A stretch of 64,000 nucleotides of DNA from an uncultured bacterium (GTDB lineage Bacteria > Desulfobacterota > BSN033 > UBA1163). Both the position numbers and the translations under genes were made by a program. Below the pieces are notes generated by a model. It was given only the letters and a program-made list of their open reading frames with translations, was not told the origin of the DNA and did not search any database. The stretch covers positions 1-64,000 of the forward strand of contig CALLAL010000001.1 of assembly GCA_938002255.1 (NCBI GenBank), read 5' to 3'. Every line of letters begins with the position of its first letter. The stretch's first letter is position 1. This document shows positions 29,860-37,957 of this stretch, piece after piece.

Positions 29860-30699
29860 TTAAAAAATTTTAAAACCTGCATTTTGAATCGATTCTTTTA
29901 TCCGGTGGTTCATGCGGACCATCACTTTGGTGGGATACCTTACTTTAAAGAGGAATTGGGCGTTGTTCTGAATATCGAGTCGTTTCATCTCCTTCTTCAC
30001 GCGGTCTAAAAATCTGGTGGTCTCCTGCTTTTCTGCCTCAAGGGCTTCAACGAAGGCTCTTTCAAGATACTTCTCCATGTCCTCATCGATCTTGCCATAC
30101 TTGTCATCGAAGGCTTTTTGAATCGCTTCTTTCTCTAAGGGTTGGTATTTCTCATGGTGGGTGATCGTCTCTCTCTTCAATTTGGGAATGTGCTGAGGAA
30201 TCGATTTCGGGTACCCGAGGCAAAGGACCATCAGGGGAAGGACATATTCAGGGATTTGAAAATATTTTCTTGTCTCATCGATCTCATGCTGAATAGAACC
30301 GATGTAGACCGAGCCGAGCCCCAGGCTCTCAGCAAGGATGACCACATTCTGGGCAGCAGCCATCAGGTCTGCGTAGGCAATAAGAAAGTGATTAAGCGCC
30401 TGCTCACCTCTGAAATCAGTCTGACACAATTCTGCCCACTTCTTAACTCGATAAAAATCGAGACAGAAGATCATAGAAAGGGGAGCATTCTTGACCCAGG
30501 GTTGACCTCCTGCCAGTTCGGAAAGCTTATTTCTTGACTCTGGATTGCGTACGACAATGATCGAGAGAGGTTGGATGTTACCTCCGGAAGGAGCGTTATT
30601 GGCCACATCCATCAGTTTTTCGATCACCGATTCAGGAACCTCTCGATCGTGAAATGCCCTGACTGACCTTCGCTTCATCATCAATTCGTAGGTGTCCAT
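29860..30699 (-). CDS. nitroreductase-family flavoprotein
   Basis: A 279-aa FMN-dependent oxidoreductase. The N-terminal MMKRRSVRAFHDREVPESVIEKLMDVANNAPSGGN pattern places phosphate-binding arginines and the NAPSGGN loop as in the family. The C-terminal third (about residues 190-279, rich in Lys/Glu) is longer than in minimal nitroreductases and is of unknown role. Such enzymes use NAD(P)H to reduce nitro groups, quinones or enones; the natural substrate is not evident. It has its own promoter (30732-30760), which overlaps the -35 region of the divergent trp-like leader. Confidence 0.85.
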   Translation of the reverse strand: MDTYELMMKRRSVRAFHDREVPESVIEKLMDVANNAPSGGNIQPLSIIVVRNPESRNKLSELAGGQPWVKNAPLSMIFCLDFYRVKKWAELCQTDFRGEQALNHFLIAYADLMAAAQNVVILAESLGLGSVYIGSIQHEIDETRKYFQIPEYVLPLMVLCLGYPKSIPQHIPKLKRETITHHEKYQPLEKEAIQKAFDDKYGKIDEDMEKYLERAFVEALEAEKQETTRFLDRVKKEMKRLDIQNNAQFLFKVRYPTKVMVRMNHRIKESIQNAGFKIF

Positions 30700-30731: not shown

Positions 30732-30760
30732 AGATTAACAGAGAGTTTCCATCTTGACAA
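30732..30760 (-). promoter_or_regulatory. promoter of the nitroreductase gene
   Basis: Reading leftwards, TTGTCA (30760-30755), a 17-bp spacer and TAATCT (30737-30732). Its -35 box shares bases with the divergent TTGACA at 30754-30759, because CTTGACAAG is nearly palindromic. Confidence 0.65.
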
Positions 30761-30782
30761 GTCGTTTGAAATTTGCTAAAAG
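30754..30782 (+). promoter_or_regulatory. promoter of the trp-like leader and trpD-like gene
   Basis: TTGACA (30754-30759), a 17-bp spacer and TAAAAG (30777-30782) precede the leader peptide start by about 37 bp. Confidence 0.7.
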
Positions 30783-30819
30783 AAAAAACACGGGTTAGAA
30801 AAAATCAAAGGAGGATCGA

Positions 30820-30891
30820 TTGAGGTTAAAGAAGATATACTGGTGGTGCTGGCAGAATTATAGAGGGGAGGTCTGCCCGGCACCGTTCTAA
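30820..30891 (+). CDS. tryptophan-rich leader peptide
   Basis: A 23-codon frame from TTG 30820 to TAA 30889-30891, with a perfect-looking ribosome site AAAGGAGG (30807-30814) 5 nt upstream. The product begins MRLKKIYWWCWQNY, with three Trp codons within four positions (30841-30852), a composition expected of a trp attenuation leader. The Trp codons lie in the 5' arm of the first downstream hairpin. The gene it leads into is a TrpD homologue 168 bp further on. The non-ATG start is the main weakness. Confidence 0.65.
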   Translation: MRLKKIYWWCWQNYRGEVCPAPF

Positions 30892-31030
30892 TTTTTCAAA
30901 TTGAATCAAGAGGCCATGGGCGGCTTCCCTGCCTGCGATAGGCAGGCCGACCCCCATGGCCTTTTTTCTTTTTGCCTGTTTTGGAGAAAGGATTTCAAAG
31001 GCTATGGAAATCATCCATAGCCTTTTTTAT
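30845..31030 (+). promoter_or_regulatory. attenuator-like hairpins upstream of the trpD-like gene
   Basis: Hairpin 1:2 pairs GGTGCTGGCAGA (30845-30856, over the Trp codons) with TCTGCCCGGCACC (30872-30884), with one bulged C. A terminator-like hairpin pairs GGCCATGGG (30912-30920) with CCCATGGCC (30953-30961) and ends in six T (30962-30967). An alternative pairing of GGTCTGCC (30870-30877) with GGCAGGCC (30941-30948) would compete with the upper part of that hairpin. A second terminator, GGCTATGG/CCATAGCC with a T-run, lies at about 31000-31027. The layout matches ribosome-stalling attenuation, though the antiterminator would not disrupt the whole terminator stem. Confidence 0.55.
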
Positions 31031-31059
31031 TTCTAAAATCCAAATAAAAGGAGAAGAAA

Positions 31060-32154
31060 ATGATTAAAGAAGCGATTGGCAAACTGGTGTTGAGGAAAGA
31101 TTTGACGGACGAAGAGATGATAGAATCCATGAGGGAAATCGTATCCAGAAAGGCATCCATAGCGGGGATAGCGGCCTTCCTCACCGCATTGAGGATGAAA
31201 GGAGAGACCCCCGAAGAGATCACAGCAGGAGCAAAGGTGATCAAGGAGAAATCTTTAAGACTTCCTTTAGGAGAAGAAGCCATCTGTCTGGACAGGGAAG
31301 AGATCACGGTTGAGAGGGAAACCATACTAAGCACGGCAAAAGATTTTTCGGGAGAGACTACCATCTTCAATATCTCAACAGCGACCGCCCTGGTCGTGGC
31401 AGGAGGGGGGGTAAAGGTGGCAAAATATGTTAGAACACCTGCCCCACCTCTTTGCGGTTGCGCCAATGTCGTTGCAGCTCTGGGAGTCCATCTTGACTTA
31501 ACGCCCAGTCAGATTGAAAGATGTTTCAAAACCCTGGGCATCTGTTTTTTTCATGACCCTCTGGTCCACAATGGAATGGATCACCTTCTTGCTCTTCGAA
31601 AGAAGATTGGCATCCGGTCCCTTCTCAATCTCATTGACCCACTCATCAATCCTGGAGGGGCAACCACCCAGATACTGGGCGTTTATGACCCCAATCTAAC
31701 AGAAACGATGGCCATTGTTCTTGGTAACCTCGGAATCAAAAGAGGGCTTGTGGTTCATGGAAAGGACACACTGGATGAGATGAGCATCACAGGAGAAACG
31801 AAAGTGACTGAGTTGAGAGAGGGGATAGTGAAGACCTATACGATCAGCCCGGAGGACTTTGGCCTGCGGCGATGGGGAGTTGGTGAGATCAAAGGAGGAA
31901 CGAAAGAGGAGAATGCAAAGATGATTCGCAAGATCTTGGAGGGGGAGAGAGGAGGAGGGAGGGAGGTTACCCTGTTAAATGCCGCTTCCGCCTTTTATAT
32001 GGCTGGAAGGGTAAAAGACCTTAAGGAAGGAATTGGAATGGCAGAGGAAGCCATTGATTCGGGGAACGCTTTTAAAACTCTCGAAAGGCTCATTCGTTTT
32101 ACCAATTCAGAAAACCGATTCGTGAGAGGCGAACTGACAACAGAGATGAGATAA
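31060..32154 (+). CDS. divergent anthranilate phosphoribosyltransferase homologue (TrpD-like)
   Basis: A 364-aa protein of the TrpD/thymidine phosphorylase fold. The small helical domain (residues 1-65) and later blocks are family-like: NISTATA (104-110), a PLINPGG segment equivalent to the PLTNP motif, and HGKDTLDEMSI with the Asp-Glu metal pair. But the PRPP-binding GTGGD motif is replaced by AKDFSGE (93-99), and KHGN by KYVR (122-125), so the usual transferase chemistry is doubtful. AAAGGAGAAG precedes the ATG. The Trp-rich leader upstream argues for tryptophan-linked control. It may be a real but divergent TrpD or a neofunctionalised paralogue. No other trp gene is in the window. Confidence 0.7.
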   Translation: MIKEAIGKLVLRKDLTDEEMIESMREIVSRKASIAGIAAFLTALRMKGETPEEITAGAKVIKEKSLRLPLGEEAICLDREEITVERETILSTAKDFSGETTIFNISTATALVVAGGGVKVAKYVRTPAPPLCGCANVVAALGVHLDLTPSQIERCFKTLGICFFHDPLVHNGMDHLLALRKKIGIRSLLNLIDPLINPGGATTQILGVYDPNLTETMAIVLGNLGIKRGLVVHGKDTLDEMSITGETKVTELREGIVKTYTISPEDFGLRRWGVGEIKGGTKEENAKMIRKILEGERGGGREVTLLNAASAFYMAGRVKDLKEGIGMAEEAIDSGNAFKTLERLIRFTNSENRFVRGELTTEMR

Positions 32155-32404: not shown

Positions 32405-32433
32405 TTGACAGGGGTGGGAAATCGGTTTATTGA
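32405..32433 (+). promoter_or_regulatory. promoter of the lone thiolase gene
   Basis: TTGACA (32405-32410), a 17-bp spacer and TATTGA (32428-32433), 31 bp before the thiolase ATG. The T-rich run just upstream of the -35 could act as an UP element. The -35 lies 19 bp from the end of MITE-like copy A. Confidence 0.7.
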
Positions 32434-32464
32434 ATCAACAACAATCCTAAAAAAGGGGGATGCT

Positions 32465-33688
32465 ATGGGACAGGGTGATGTTGTTGTGGTGAGTGCGGTG
32501 CGAACACCTTTTGGGAAATTTGGAGGAACCCTTAGAGACATTCCTTCAATTGACCTTGGAGCCATGGTGATTCGAGAAGTTCTCCAGCGAGTCAATATAA
32601 AAGGGGAAGAAGTGGAAGAGACCTATTATGGGGTTGCCGTACCAGGGGAGGTGGGGCTTGAGACTGATGTTCCAGCCAGGCAAGCCACGCTTAAGGCAGG
32701 GTTTCCAGGAGATTCCATCTCCATTACACTGGACCGAGCCTGCTGTTCATCGATGGCGGCCGTGAGGCTGGGGTATCGGGCGATCAAAGCCGGGGAAATT
32801 GAAATTGCCCTGGGAGTTGGAGCTGAAAATATGAGTCGAACCCCGCTGATTGTCCCGCCTTATGTTCGATGGGGAAGTCGGTTGGGAAACATCGAGGTCT
32901 GGGATGGTCTCTTTGAGCTGGGATACAAAGGATTTAATCCTGTCTCGGTTGATACCGGTGAGGTTGCACTCGAATATGGAGTCAGCCGGGAGGACCAAGA
33001 CCGCTGGGCTTATGAAAGTCAAATGAAATATGACAGGGCTTTTAAAGAGGGAAAATTTAAGGTAGGGGAGGAGTTGATGAGGGTTGAAATTCCCCAGGGG
33101 AAAAAACCTCCCCTCCTTTTTGAAAAGGATGAGTTTCCAAAACCGGATACCACGATGGAAAGACTTGCTAAGCTGCCAACGGTCTATGGAAGCCCCACAG
33201 TAACTGCGGGCAATGCCCCTGGGCTTGATACGGGCGCTTCAGCTATTCTTATCATGAGCGAAAGGAAAGCCAAAGAGAAGGGACTTAAACCTCTTGCCAG
33301 AATCATTTCCATGATTGCCACCGCTACTGCTCCGAGATTGATTGCTGCCATTCCGGGATTTACCATTCAGAGGGTTCTTGAGAAAGCAGGTCTCCGTCTC
33401 GACCAGATGGATTTAATCGAGGTCAATGAAGCCTTTGCCGCCATGCCACTCGTAAGTGCCAAGATTCTGTCGAACGGTCATCCCGAAAAGATGAAAAAGA
33501 TCCTTGAAAAAACAAATGTGAATGGAGGTGCCATTGCTATTGGACATCCTGTAGGGGCAAGTGGGGCAAGAATATTGATGACCCTGATTTACGAATTGAG
33601 AAGAAGGGGTGGTGGGATGGGGGTGGCTTCCATCTGTGGAGGATTAGCCCAGGGCGAAGGCGCCATCATTCAGGTGGATGGAGAATAG
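32465..33688 (+). CDS. thiolase-family acetyl-CoA acyltransferase
   Basis: A 407-aa thiolase that cleaves 3-ketoacyl-CoA or condenses acyl-CoAs. The nucleophile is Cys94 (RACCSSMAAV). The His motif is NGGAIAIGHPVGASGAR, and the C-terminal Cys is in ICGGLAQGEG, a variant of the usual CxGGGxG. ATG 32465 has AGGGGGATGCT upstream and is preferred over a TTG at 32405 that lies in the promoter. It is transcribed alone, with its promoter 19 bp from MITE-like copy A. A degradative or acetoacetyl-CoA role is likely, given the neighbouring beta-oxidation genes. Confidence 0.9.
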   Translation: MGQGDVVVVSAVRTPFGKFGGTLRDIPSIDLGAMVIREVLQRVNIKGEEVEETYYGVAVPGEVGLETDVPARQATLKAGFPGDSISITLDRACCSSMAAVRLGYRAIKAGEIEIALGVGAENMSRTPLIVPPYVRWGSRLGNIEVWDGLFELGYKGFNPVSVDTGEVALEYGVSREDQDRWAYESQMKYDRAFKEGKFKVGEELMRVEIPQGKKPPLLFEKDEFPKPDTTMERLAKLPTVYGSPTVTAGNAPGLDTGASAILIMSERKAKEKGLKPLARIISMIATATAPRLIAAIPGFTIQRVLEKAGLRLDQMDLIEVNEAFAAMPLVSAKILSNGHPEKMKKILEKTNVNGGAIAIGHPVGASGARILMTLIYELRRRGGGMGVASICGGLAQGEGAIIQVDGE

Positions 33689-34083
33689 GTTACCCTATCA
33701 TTTGTAACCCCGGTGCCTTTTACACAATAATTTTACACAATAGGGAGGCCAGTCAACGGAAACAAGGTATTTCTCTTTTCACCGCTTGATCAACTTTTCC
33801 CCCTTTGTTTTGCTGACCCCGGTGAAGGTGCTGGAAAGACATAGATAGTTTCATCTTCATTGATTTCAGATATGTAGGAACCAGTAAACCAATTAAGTAT
33901 TTAAGTTTTTTTCTGATCAACTCCTCCGTAGGTGATTGGTGGGTAGCCGAATCTTTCAAAACCCTTCTTATTTCAATTTTGATAACCTATTGTTAATATT
34001 ATAAATAATTCATTAAAGTCTGATCTAAAACGGGCTTGACGGTGATAGGTTTTTTCCTCTCTTTTATAGACATTAAAAATAAC
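33689..34083. other. intergenic stretch with possible decayed coding sequence
   Basis: This holds a small hairpin GGTTAC/GTAACC (33688-33719). On the minus strand, from about 33975 to 33790, one frame looks protein-like (ERFGYPPITYGGVDQKKT, then INEDETIYVFPAP after a stop), which may be the remains of a gene. I recognise no family. The rest is AT-rich without features. Confidence 0.25.
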
Positions 34084-34112
34084 TTGACAAGGAAAGTGGG
34101 GCTGTGATAGAA
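34084..34112 (+). promoter_or_regulatory. promoter of the TetR-MBL-fadNAE-like operon
   Basis: TTGACA (34084-34089), a 17-bp spacer and ATAGAA (34107-34112), about 31 bp upstream of the TetR start. The A-rich AAAAATAAC lies just before the -35. No clear TetR palindrome could be picked out here. Confidence 0.6.
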
Positions 34113-34143
34113 AACTGAAAGTTAAATAAGGTTTCTATTGATT

Positions 34144-34728
34144 ATGGAATCGGAAAAAAGGGCTCAGATTTTAAGTCTTGCCAAAAAGAGGTTTGAGCGG
34201 TTTGGATTCAATAAAACGACGGTTGATGAAATTGCCAGAGACGCTGGCATTTCGAAGCGGACACTCTATCAGGAATTTGAGAATAAAGAGAAGATTCTTG
34301 AAGAACTTCTGATGTACGAAGCTTTATCCGTAAGAAAGGCTATTTTGAATCAGATTAATAAAATTTCTGATCCTTCTGAAAAACTTCAGATTTACATCCG
34401 GTTGTCCAACAAGTATCTTGAGCAGAACCCATTTATTGTGAATGTCCTGAACGATGAATCAGGCTTCTATGCCCCTTTTCTCAAAGAGAAGCCCCACATT
34501 ATCGAAACAGGAATCGAAGAGATCTTTATCTCTATTTTAAAAGAGGGGATAGAGAAGGGCATCTTTCGTAAGATGGACGAAAAGGTAGTCGGGCATTGCC
34601 TTTTTCTTCTTTTCAAAGGGTTTACCTATGGGAGGCAGAATACCCACCACTCCATCGGTTCGAACCAGATCAATGAGTTCATCAATTTTATACTGAGCGG
34701 AGTGGGTGCAAAAACATCTAATGTATAA
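34144..34728 (+). CDS. TetR/AcrR-family transcriptional regulator
   Basis: A 194-aa repressor. The N-terminal helix-turn-helix reads FGFNKTTVDEIARDAGISKRTLYQEFENKEKILEELL (about residues 18-55). The C-terminal ligand-binding domain is divergent. ATG 34144 is chosen over a TTG at 34138. Its stop TAA shares its last base with the ATG of the next gene, so it is the first gene of the MBL-fadN-fadA-fadE-like operon. Its ligand is probably an acyl-CoA, as for FadR-type TetR proteins near such operons; this is inference. Confidence 0.88.
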   Translation: MESEKRAQILSLAKKRFERFGFNKTTVDEIARDAGISKRTLYQEFENKEKILEELLMYEALSVRKAILNQINKISDPSEKLQIYIRLSNKYLEQNPFIVNVLNDESGFYAPFLKEKPHIIETGIEEIFISILKEGIEKGIFRKMDEKVVGHCLFLLFKGFTYGRQNTHHSIGSNQINEFINFILSGVGAKTSNV

Positions 34729-35555
34729 TGATTCGATATTCGATCAAAAAAGAATTAAACGGGCCGGTCCATTCGATTCACATGACGAGTCGGATTCTTG
34801 GGATACCTGTCTTTAAAGTTCATGCTTATTATGTGGAAGGGCTTCTTATTGACACAGGTTTTATAAGGTGCAGGAAAGGGTTTTTAAAAGTGTGCGCGGA
34901 TCTTCCGGAGATTCAGACCGTGATCAACACGCATCACCACGAGGATCATACGGGCAACAATTTTTGGATGACCCGGAAGTATGGCATCATTCCCATGGCC
35001 CATCCGAATTCCGCCTCCTATACCCACTCTCCCTCAAAGTGGGTCCGACTTTACCGACGATTCATCTGGGGAGCACCTCCTGGCTGGGAGATGACTCCAG
35101 TGGAGTGTGAAGTGCACACAAAGCATCATCCGTTTTTAATCATCCACACTCCAGGACATTCGGATGACCATATCTGTCTCTATGAGCCGAACGAAGGCTG
35201 GTTATTTTCAGGCGATCTGTTTTTGGATGAAGCAGTGAGGTATACGCGGGAAGACGAGGATCTTTATGAACTCCTTGATTCCCTGAAGAGGGTAGCCACC
35301 CTTAACCTCCGGAGGATGTTCTGTTCTTATTGTGGTGTTATTGAAAAACCAAGGGAGGCCCTTCAGAAAAAGATCGAGTTTCTTGAGAGTATCCGTGAGG
35401 GAGTTGAAGAAGGAGTGCGGCAAGGGTTCACTCCTAAAGAGATTCAACAAAGACTTCTTGGCCCAGGAGATCGGTTCCGTTGGATCACAGCAGGACAAAT
35501 TTCTAAAAAGAATACCATTCAGGCATTTTTAAAAAGAAAAGGAGTGGAACGATGA
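34728..35555 (+). CDS. metallo-beta-lactamase-fold hydrolase
   Basis: A 275-aa MBL-fold protein. The zinc-binding motif is His69-X-His71-X-Asp73-His74 (INTHHHEDHTG), followed by TPGHSDDH and the bridging Asp in FSGDLF. A C-terminal helical extension (about residues 215-275) resembles the tail of LACTB2-like or thioesterase-like MBL proteins. It overlaps the TetR stop by one base and the fadN-like start by 4 bp, so it is translationally coupled to fatty-acid genes. An acyl-CoA thioesterase or lactone hydrolase role would fit but is not shown by the sequence. Confidence 0.85.
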   Translation: MIRYSIKKELNGPVHSIHMTSRILGIPVFKVHAYYVEGLLIDTGFIRCRKGFLKVCADLPEIQTVINTHHHEDHTGNNFWMTRKYGIIPMAHPNSASYTHSPSKWVRLYRRFIWGAPPGWEMTPVECEVHTKHHPFLIIHTPGHSDDHICLYEPNEGWLFSGDLFLDEAVRYTREDEDLYELLDSLKRVATLNLRRMFCSYCGVIEKPREALQKKIEFLESIREGVEEGVRQGFTPKEIQQRLLGPGDRFRWITAGQISKKNTIQAFLKRKGVER

Positions 35556-37957
35556 AGCAGAGAATTCGGAAAGCAGCGGTCTTAGGAGCAGGGGTGATGG
35601 GAAGTGCGATTGCGGCCCATTTTGCTAATGTGGGGATTCCTTCCTTTCTCCTCGATATTGTGCCACCGGAGCTGAACGAGGCGGAAAAAAAGAAAGGCTT
35701 GACACCCGAGAGTCCGGAATTCAGAAACCGATTTTCCATTCAGGGGAAGAAGAATATTCAGGAGGTAAAGCCTGCTCCTCTCTATCTGAAGGAGGATGCA
35801 GACCTGATCACCGTGGGTAATTTTGAAGATCATCTCTCATGGATCTCACAGACCGACTGGGTCATTGAGGTGGTTGTCGAAAATTTAAATTTGAAAAGAG
35901 AACTTTTTAAAAAGGTCATTCCCTTTTTGAAGGATGAGGCTGTGATCAGTTCAAACACCTCGGGTATCTCGATCCAGAAGATGTGCGAAGGGTTTCCAGC
36001 AGGATTTGAAGAGAGGTTTTTAGGGACCCACTTCTTCAATCCGCCCCGCTACATGAAACTTCTTGAGATCATTCCTGCTCGGTCTACGTCCAGAGATGTG
36101 GTCAAGCAGATGGCTGAAATCGGTGAGAGGGTTTTAGGAAAAGGAATCGTTTTTGCCAAGGATACGCCTAATTTTATAGGAAACCGGATCGGAGCCTTTG
36201 CAGGGGCTGTGACCATCAGAACTGCCTTGGAAGAGGGATACTTGATCGAAGAGATCGATCAAATTACCGGACCAGCCATTGGAAGAACCAAATTGGCTAC
36301 CTTCAAACTTGCTGACCTGGTTGGACTTGATGTGATGTCTCATGTCTCAAAAAATCTCTATGAAAGTCTTCCTGAAGGGAAAGAAAAGGATTATTTTAAA
36401 CCCTCTCCTTTGATCGAACAGATGATCAAGAACCAATGGCTGGGCCAGAAGACCAAGCAGGGTTTTTATAAGCGAGTGAAAAGAGTGGGAAAAGACGAAA
36501 TTCTGGTTCTCGATTATGAAAAGATGGAATACCGTCCTCAAAAGAAGGTGACCTTCGCTTCTGTGGAGGCAAGTAAAAATATCGAGGATGTCAGAGAGCG
36601 ACTCAAAGCCATGGTTACCAACCCTGACCGTGGAGGCCAGTTTGCCTGGAAGATCCTGAAAAAGACCTTCCTTTATGCGGCTGAGAGGGTTCCTGAAATT
36701 TCGGATGACATCGTCAATATCGATCGGGCAATGCGATGGGGATATAACTGGGAGTTGGGGCCCTTCGAACAATGGGATGCCATCGGTTTGAAATCATCGG
36801 TTCAAAAAATGGAGAAGGAAGGAGAGACCATTCCCCCCCTTGTCGAGACACTCCTGAACAAAGGATATTCTTCTTTTTATGAAAAAAAAGAAGGCCGTGT
36901 TTCATACTTTGACTTAGGGAGTGGCCAATATCAGCCCATTGAAGAGAAGCCGGAGATCATCCTTTTAGCAAGCCTGAAAGAGCAAAACAAAACGGTTCTT
37001 TCAAATCCTGGGGCAAGTCTGATTGATCTGGGCGATGGAGTTGCCTGCCTTGAGTTCCATTCGAAGATGAATTCGATCGGGGCAGATACCGTACAGATGC
37101 TTCGGGATGCTCTGAACCAAGTTGAAGAGAAATTCGAGGGTCTTGTCATTGGAAACCAGGCTGAAAACTTCTCCGTCGGAGCGAATTTAATGCTCATTCT
37201 CTTTGAGATTCAGGACGAGAACTGGGACGACATTGATAGGATGGTGAAAGCCTTTCAGGATGTTCTTATGGCGGTGAAGTATTTTGAAAAGCCTGTGGTC
37301 GCCGCACCTTTTGGAATGACTCTCGCAGGGGGATGTGAAATCTGCCTCGCCTGCAACGCTGTGCGAGCGGCTGCTGAGACCTATATGGGGCTGGTCGAAG
37401 TTGGGGTGGGCTTGATCCCGGCAGGTGGGGGAACCAAAGAGATGCTTCTCCGATCCATAGAACATATTCCACCAGAAATGGATATGGACTATCTTCCCTT
37501 TGTCCGGCGAGCCTTTGAAACCGTTGCCATGGCAAAAGTTTCAACGAGCGCCAAGGAGGCACAGAAACTGGGATATATGAGGAAAACAGATCGTTTTTCA
37601 GTCAACCGGGATTATCTCCTTCATGACGCCAAAGAGACTGTGCTCCAGATGGTCAAAGAGAATTACCGACCTCCCAGACCAAAGAAGATCAAGGTCATGG
37701 GGGAAAGAGGCCTGGCCCTGATGAAGATGGGTCTCTTTTACATGAGGGAAGGGGGTTACATCAGCGAATACGACGAGCATGTTGGAAGAAAGATCGCTTA
37801 TATCATGTCCGGAGGAAACCTGCCAGATGGAACTGAGGTGACCGAACAATATCTCCTGGACTTGGAAAGAGAAGCGTTCTTAAGTTTGTGCGGGGAGGTT
37901 AAAACACAGGAGCGAATCGAATATATGTTGAAGAAGGGAAAACCACTTAGGAACTAA
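35552..37957 (+). CDS. 3-hydroxyacyl-CoA dehydrogenase/enoyl-CoA hydratase fusion (FadN type)
   Basis: An 801-aa bifunctional beta-oxidation enzyme. The 3-hydroxyacyl-CoA dehydrogenase comes first: NAD-binding AAVLGAGVMGSAIAAHFANVG (about residues 8-28), GTHFFNPPRYMKLLEII with the catalytic His, then two C-terminal dehydrogenase domains. The enoyl-CoA hydratase is at the C-terminus: oxyanion-hole region FSVGAN and the two acidic positions in GGCEICLAC and LVEVGVGLIPAGGG. This order is that of Bacillus subtilis FadN and the reverse of FadB. It is followed by fadA-like and fadE-like genes, the same order as fadN-fadA-fadE. Confidence 0.93.
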   Translation: MKQRIRKAAVLGAGVMGSAIAAHFANVGIPSFLLDIVPPELNEAEKKKGLTPESPEFRNRFSIQGKKNIQEVKPAPLYLKEDADLITVGNFEDHLSWISQTDWVIEVVVENLNLKRELFKKVIPFLKDEAVISSNTSGISIQKMCEGFPAGFEERFLGTHFFNPPRYMKLLEIIPARSTSRDVVKQMAEIGERVLGKGIVFAKDTPNFIGNRIGAFAGAVTIRTALEEGYLIEEIDQITGPAIGRTKLATFKLADLVGLDVMSHVSKNLYESLPEGKEKDYFKPSPLIEQMIKNQWLGQKTKQGFYKRVKRVGKDEILVLDYEKMEYRPQKKVTFASVEASKNIEDVRERLKAMVTNPDRGGQFAWKILKKTFLYAAERVPEISDDIVNIDRAMRWGYNWELGPFEQWDAIGLKSSVQKMEKEGETIPPLVETLLNKGYSSFYEKKEGRVSYFDLGSGQYQPIEEKPEIILLASLKEQNKTVLSNPGASLIDLGDGVACLEFHSKMNSIGADTVQMLRDALNQVEEKFEGLVIGNQAENFSVGANLMLILFEIQDENWDDIDRMVKAFQDVLMAVKYFEKPVVAAPFGMTLAGGCEICLACNAVRAAAETYMGLVEVGVGLIPAGGGTKEMLLRSIEHIPPEMDMDYLPFVRRAFETVAMAKVSTSAKEAQKLGYMRKTDRFSVNRDYLLHDAKETVLQMVKENYRPPRPKKIKVMGERGLALMKMGLFYMREGGYISEYDEHVGRKIAYIMSGGNLPDGTEVTEQYLLDLEREAFLSLCGEVKTQERIEYMLKKGKPLRN

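Follow-up and report, generated by a model that had tools for sequence, protein, structure and literature searches.

In the trpL leader of Escherichia coli, Trp codons are located in a short leader ORF whose stop codon lies just behind region 2, and the leader transcript can form 1:2, 2:3 and 3:4 hairpins. Leaders with more than one terminator have also been described. According to the portion of the source considered here, the rimP leader of Gammaproteobacteria is a 5′ leader with a tandem second terminator and a potential antiterminator; the gene that it precedes is unrelated to the one discussed below, and that portion mentions neither an amino-acid leader peptide nor a stem relay (Naville and Gautheret 2010, PMC2965389). 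On the protein side, the GTGGD motif and the KHGN(R)xVSS loop of AnPRT hold the phosphate and ribose of PRPP, and TrpD2/YbiB is a nucleic-acid-binding protein with an AnPRT-like fold that is devoid of the PRPP motif (PMC9835598).

The locus described here can be compared with each of these systems. It lies on the forward strand of the window, i.e. the whole stretch of 64,000 nucleotides that was analysed (positions 1 to 64,000 of contig CALLAL010000001.1, assembly GCA_938002255.1, lineage BSN033; UBA1163), and consists of a gene for a TrpD-like protein of 364 aa (31060-32154, ATG at 31060) and its leader. Judging from comparative sequence analysis, the gene is very probably governed by a ribosome-mediated Trp attenuator with tandem terminators. 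A more far-reaching reading, to which we assign a probability of roughly 35%, is that this leader would be a relay attenuator, widespread in Thermodesulfobacteriota, which in aromatic-amino-acid auxotrophs turns on a TrpD-derived pseudo-enzyme as an effector of Trp starvation.

The layout of the leader can largely be read from the sequence itself, as proposed in a preliminary description of this DNA. The promoter claimed there, TTGACA-N17-TAAAAG (30754-30782; TTGACA at 30754-30759, TAAAAG at 30777-30782), is present, and its spacing and −35 element recur as TTGACA-N17-TAAA at the equivalent place upstream of the orthologues; a promoter scan did not list it because its −10 element (TAAAAG) is weak. 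The Shine-Dalgarno sequence AAAGGAGG (30807-30814) precedes the predicted TTG-started frame of 23 codons (30820-30891, UAA stop at 30889-30891), the translation of which reads (M)RLKKIYWWCWQNYRGEVCPAPF and carries three Trp codons in four positions (30841, 30844 and 30850). These regulatory codons, UGG UGG UGC UGG (WWCW; 30841-30852), are placed inside region 1, the 5′ arm of the 1:2 pause hairpin (30845-30855), and folding positions this hairpin at 30845-30884 with the Trp codons in its 5′ arm, just as had been suggested. Region 2 (30865-30884) provides both the 3′ arm of the 1:2 hairpin and the 5′ arm of the antiterminator.

The two T-tailed hairpins that had been noted ahead of the gene are likewise found, at about 30910-30967 (T1) and at 30997-31028 (T2). 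The T1 hairpin spans about 30910-30961 and is followed by a U-run at 30962-30967; its 5′ arm constitutes region 3 (30910-30929), within which GGGCGGCUUCCC (30918-30929) doubles as the antiterminator partner, and its 3′ arm CCCATGGCC forms region 4 together with the U-tract (30953-30967). T2, whose hairpin spans 30997-31025, is composed of region 5, the 5′ arm AAAGGCTATGG (30997-31007), which is complementary to the T1 3′ arm, and region 6, the 3′ arm with its U-tract (31015-31028). As a whole, the leader has a folding energy of −97.6 kcal/mol (z −4.9), and none of 200 shuffled sequences reached so low a value. Nested in the T1 loop is the palindrome CCTGCCTGCGATAGGCAGG (30928-30946), which strengthens T1 and is missing from the other 11 orthologues; it occurs once in the window, and a similar palindrome is found once more in the genome (contig C19, position 38911).

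All sequence features of a Trp attenuator are thus in place, i.e. a leader ORF with adjacent Trp codons, a 1:2 hairpin, an antiterminator and a terminator before the gene. Like in E. coli trpL, a short Trp-codon ORF is combined with a 1:2 pause hairpin, a 2:3 antiterminator and a 3:4 terminator that shares the bases of region 3, and the stop codon lies just behind region 2. Unlike in trpL, the peptide carries a W-rich WWCW/WWWW motif, the second terminator is complementary to the first, and what is controlled is a TrpD paralogue on its own in the window and, at other loci, trpE, trpB2, trpS, iorA or aro genes. When Trp-tRNA is ample, the translating ribosome would reach the UAA at 30889 and cover region 2, so that T1 could form and transcription would end near 30967; polymerases escaping T1 would then meet T2 near 31027. 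When Trp-tRNA is scarce, the ribosome would stall on UGG UGG UGC UGG and mask region 1, leaving region 2 (30865-30884) to pair with the 5′ arm and loop of T1 (30918-30929), whereupon T1 would fail and the gene at 31060 would be transcribed.

This scheme is borne out by comparative data. The orthologue set comprises 12 genes including the window's own, to which the other eleven are 57-75% identical, and Trp-rich leader codons and both hairpins are present upstream in 12/12. Conservation of the Trp codons and stems had been set beforehand as a test of the attenuation claim, and both have been kept throughout, the motifs being WWCW, GWRW, GWCW, WWRW, WRRW, WWWW and WWYW, with WWW in one leader (L011). 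Over 92 leaders, the 1:2 duplex has a mean z of −1.9 (below −1 in 73% of leaders) and the antiterminator 2:3 duplex one of −2.9, the latter pairing being found in nearly all. The covarying stems that had been recommended as a further check were recovered from an alignment of 78 sequences, fitted to a model with T1 and without the antiterminator: T1 is paired in 99% of cases with a covariation of 0.366 (0.205 when shuffled), and the antiterminator in 88% with a covariation of 0.374 (0.250 when shuffled), neither value being reached in 500 shuffles. Sliding the antiterminator out of register yielded far lower covariation. The bases common to both structures change together with both partners, which is a hallmark of mutually exclusive alternative structures; the ribosome-stalling layout recognized in the preliminary description is therefore supported by conserved, covarying alternative pairings. 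Together, the conservation in 12/12 orthologues, the model matches described below and the covarying terminator and antiterminator are the reason why Trp attenuation is considered well supported.

The orthologue leaders were used to build a covariance model of the segment bounded by the Trp codons and T1. At E<=1e-3, this model finds matches in 21 of the 23 genomes of the class and in 174 of the 395 that were sampled across the phylum. The weakest of these matches include false positives; the model is only roughly calibrated, so weak E-values are not reliable. Two in-frame TGG codons are present in 92/103 model hits. The genes downstream of these 103 hits, which were named by their N-terminal sequence and mostly without profile searches, are mainly trpE (37), trpD or TrpD-like (15), iorA (10), trpB2 (5), trpS (4), DAHP-type synthases and aroK, and 23 were left without assignment; because the leaders share descent, such counts do not represent independent events. 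Some loci of the same family occur in Thermodesulfobacteriota and Syntrophaceae MAGs. Two candidates, L160 and L162, were rejected as likely false positives, as ATGGGTGG repeats end the ORF (tail GGMGGMGDMY) just before the terminator. Four Trp-type leaders with a single terminator (L153, L154, L163 and L217) precede trpS and have an antiterminator of the kind GATATTGCCC:GGGCAATATC.

T2 is present in over half of the 103 leaders that were read; it stands ahead of trpE in 29/37 cases, of trpD or TrpD-like genes in 12/15, of trpB2 in 5/5 and of an aldolase-type aro synthase in 3/3; among the leaders read, it was found in 0/4 for trpS and 0/10 for iorA. In the window, the T2 5′ arm can pair with the T1 3′ arm at 7/7 core positions, and 57 of 58 tandem leaders show this complementarity at at least 6 of 7. 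In staged folding with region 1 masked and the T2 5′ arm, not yet its 3′ arm, transcribed, the predicted equilibrium changed from T1, at 0.90, to the antiterminator, at 0.76; this shift was abolished when the T2 5′ arm was shuffled (0.09), and it is seen in 47/55 leaders. Given the complementarity of the T2 5′ arm and the ability of the native, not the shuffled, arm to flip T1 to the antiterminator, we infer a relay in which the T1 3′ arm, once freed by the antiterminator, would capture the emerging T2 5′ arm, such that a single stall also delays or prevents T2. We put the odds of such a double disarming by a single stalled ribosome at about even. As equilibrium folding of the full-length leader lets T1 and T2 win, i.e. 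the complete transcript prefers the two terminators, any such relay would have to be kinetic.

The strongest alternative, whose probability falls somewhat short of even, retains the same Trp attenuator and regards T2 as an independent back-up that takes out some of the transcripts under all conditions, with the likeness of T1 and T2 stemming from duplication or from shared preferences of terminator stems. Such a view accords with the leaders of trpS and iorA, which, where read, do without T2, and with the near-equal complementarity of the control pair, T1-5′:T2-3′, which indicates that plain stem similarity accounts for part of the T1-3′:T2-5′ pairing. It also accords with the energy of the leaders' own T1-3′:T2-5′ pairing, which, in a per-leader null that is too weak to prove the relay, reaches a median no more extreme than the 7.7th percentile among unrelated terminators. 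Yet, if T2 (about −13 to −25 kcal/mol) acted unconditionally, induction would be blunted, the T1-3′:T2-5′ duplex is stronger than the control in 15/21 families (p 0.016), and the antiterminator is stabilized by the native T2 5′ arm and not by shuffled arms. Covariation leans slightly in the same direction, T1-3′:T2-5′ exceeding its shuffles by a little more than T1-5′:T2-3′ does. Against the relay, single substitutions in T2 go both ways with respect to the T1-3′:T2-5′ pairing; the leaders of TrpB2, for instance, have an A.C mismatch at its centre.

Tandem hairpins are also seen at aro genes. Leaders with T1 and a complementary T2 precede an aldolase-type aro synthase in L158 (G005) and L161 (G004), both with a mixed aromatic stretch (GFYFYWFFYTGICP in L158). 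In two further genomes, a second leader is located between the TrpD-like gene and an aro operon (L041 in G018 and L040 in G019); it encodes a Phe/Tyr-rich peptide (MMIKGFGRVFYFSFYYLFVMVCPQGWG; MVMTFGKAFYLFFYYFAAMVCPFGWG) and again has two tandem hairpins ahead of the operon, so the tandem arrangement extends beyond Trp. The aro genes that follow the TrpD-like gene in these two genomes were considered as part of its unit and rejected, since their own promoter-like TTGACA site and their own Phe/Tyr-rich leader make them probably separate units.

The protein encoded behind the window's leader is a TrpD homologue by sequence, scoring 307 bits against the TrpD model TIGR01245 (cut-off 199) and being 45-50% identical over its whole length to canonical TrpD of related bacteria. 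The predicted structure is an AnPRT fold as well (TM 0.84-0.87 compared with PDB 9ucw and 4hkm), based on a model built with 38 sequences (pLDDT 86) after a 12-sequence model (pLDDT 54) had been set aside. The earlier assignment thus holds for sequence and fold; it does not extend to the active site, which marks a divergent paralogue. Unlike in TrpD, the PRPP motifs GTGGD and KHGNR are absent from 12/12 orthologues, LGPLTNP has changed to (L/I)DPLxNP, and pathway partners were not detected in the genome. The 12 paralogues are monophyletic (100/100), spread over three families and evolve with a dN/dS of 0.10-0.17. The product, which is under purifying selection, has probably lost phosphoribosyltransferase activity and is a probable pseudo-enzyme. 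An AnPRT-like fold without the PRPP motif is shared with TrpD2/YbiB; unlike members of that family, the protein reaches 35 bits against a YbiB cut-off of 185 and is much closer to true TrpD, arguing for an independent loss of the motif.

A less favoured, rather unlikely alternative is that the protein is still an enzyme, i.e. a phosphoribosyltransferase, or a related transferase, whose donor or acceptor has changed and which acts in salvage or another pathway. Its full-length predicted AnPRT fold with many invariant AnPRT residues retained, the strong purifying selection and the retention of TrpB2 in the genome would fit such a role; the loss of GTGGD and of the KHGN(R)xVSS loop in 12/12 orthologues speaks against it, as does the model, which has no confident structure for residues 81-95, a segment that leads up to the lost loop and reaches into it.

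Eroded relatives exist beyond this group. In another family, a leader-controlled TrpD (L239, G122:C185) has lost the PRPP motifs independently (ASGDDG and RYGTR; branch 1.06), and TrpD of G143 and G245 shows partial motif erosion, so the association of a Trp leader, a lone trpD and an eroded active site recurs. In G078, a highly divergent TrpD relative whose motifs are degenerate (L257, G078:C8; HPSRAT and RTGVLS) is encoded alongside a normal, leader-controlled trpD.

The preliminary description had also remarked on a single TrpD-like gene in place of a whole trp operon, and indeed the gene looks monocistronic. Upstream lies a divergent nitroreductase gene (29860-30699), and downstream follow thiolase, TetR, metallo-hydrolase and FadB-like genes (32405-37957). 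The thiolase gene follows the TrpD-like gene in all loci of the genus that were read and not in those of other families; as loci of the genus provide it with a TTGACA promoter-like site of its own, it was rejected as a co-transcribed partner. All genomes are drafts, and statements on absence refer to searches of the assemblies. In the window's genome (98.46% estimated completeness), pathway searches whose controls were positive in all 14 reference genomes returned no match for TrpE, TrpC, TrpA or chorismate synthase, and neither TrpC nor chorismate synthase was found in the congeners G007-G009. TrpB2 is present, the window's TrpD-like gene is the only one found, and the only Trp leader detected in the genome precedes it. 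On this basis, the organism seems to have lost the genes for making tryptophan. Since the TrpD-like protein would be made upon Trp shortage in an organism in which neither Trp nor chorismate biosynthesis was detected, it probably acts as a regulator or takes part in another reaction.

The same missing genes (trpE, trpC, trpA and chorismate synthase) could suggest a relic, with leader and gene as what is left, in the course of decay, of a trp operon that was lost; this is very improbable in light of the 12/12 intact leaders and the dN/dS of 0.10-0.17. Moreover, four genomes (G001, G005, G006 and G011) contain the paralogue in addition to a canonical trpD that has intact motifs and lies next to trpC, meaning that the paralogue did not stay behind from that operon. 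Less probable still, and with nothing found in its favour, is sensing by a T-box, a TRAP-like protein or a riboswitch instead of a stalled ribosome, as the Trp codons and leader frame are conserved and an Rfam scan at the gathering score returned no matching family, T-box (RF00230) and riboswitch families included.

A permissive Rfam scan of the leader gave a weak sRNA match as its best hit and no match to RF00513 (Trp_leader), from which the leader thus differs in having no detectable covariance-model relation. Neither Rfam nor the open-licence papers to which the literature search was confined appear to contain a description of such a leader for the phylum; subscription articles, for example reviews of how trp operons evolved, may hold one. 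If the interpretation given here is true, the phylum would gain a family of Trp attenuators together with its regulon (trp, trpS, trpB2, ior and aro), and the coupled terminators may represent a second layer on the textbook mechanism. The TrpD-derived protein, whose motifs are gone while its gene is conserved and tied to Trp starvation in bacteria that apparently do not make Trp, would have a function that is directly testable.
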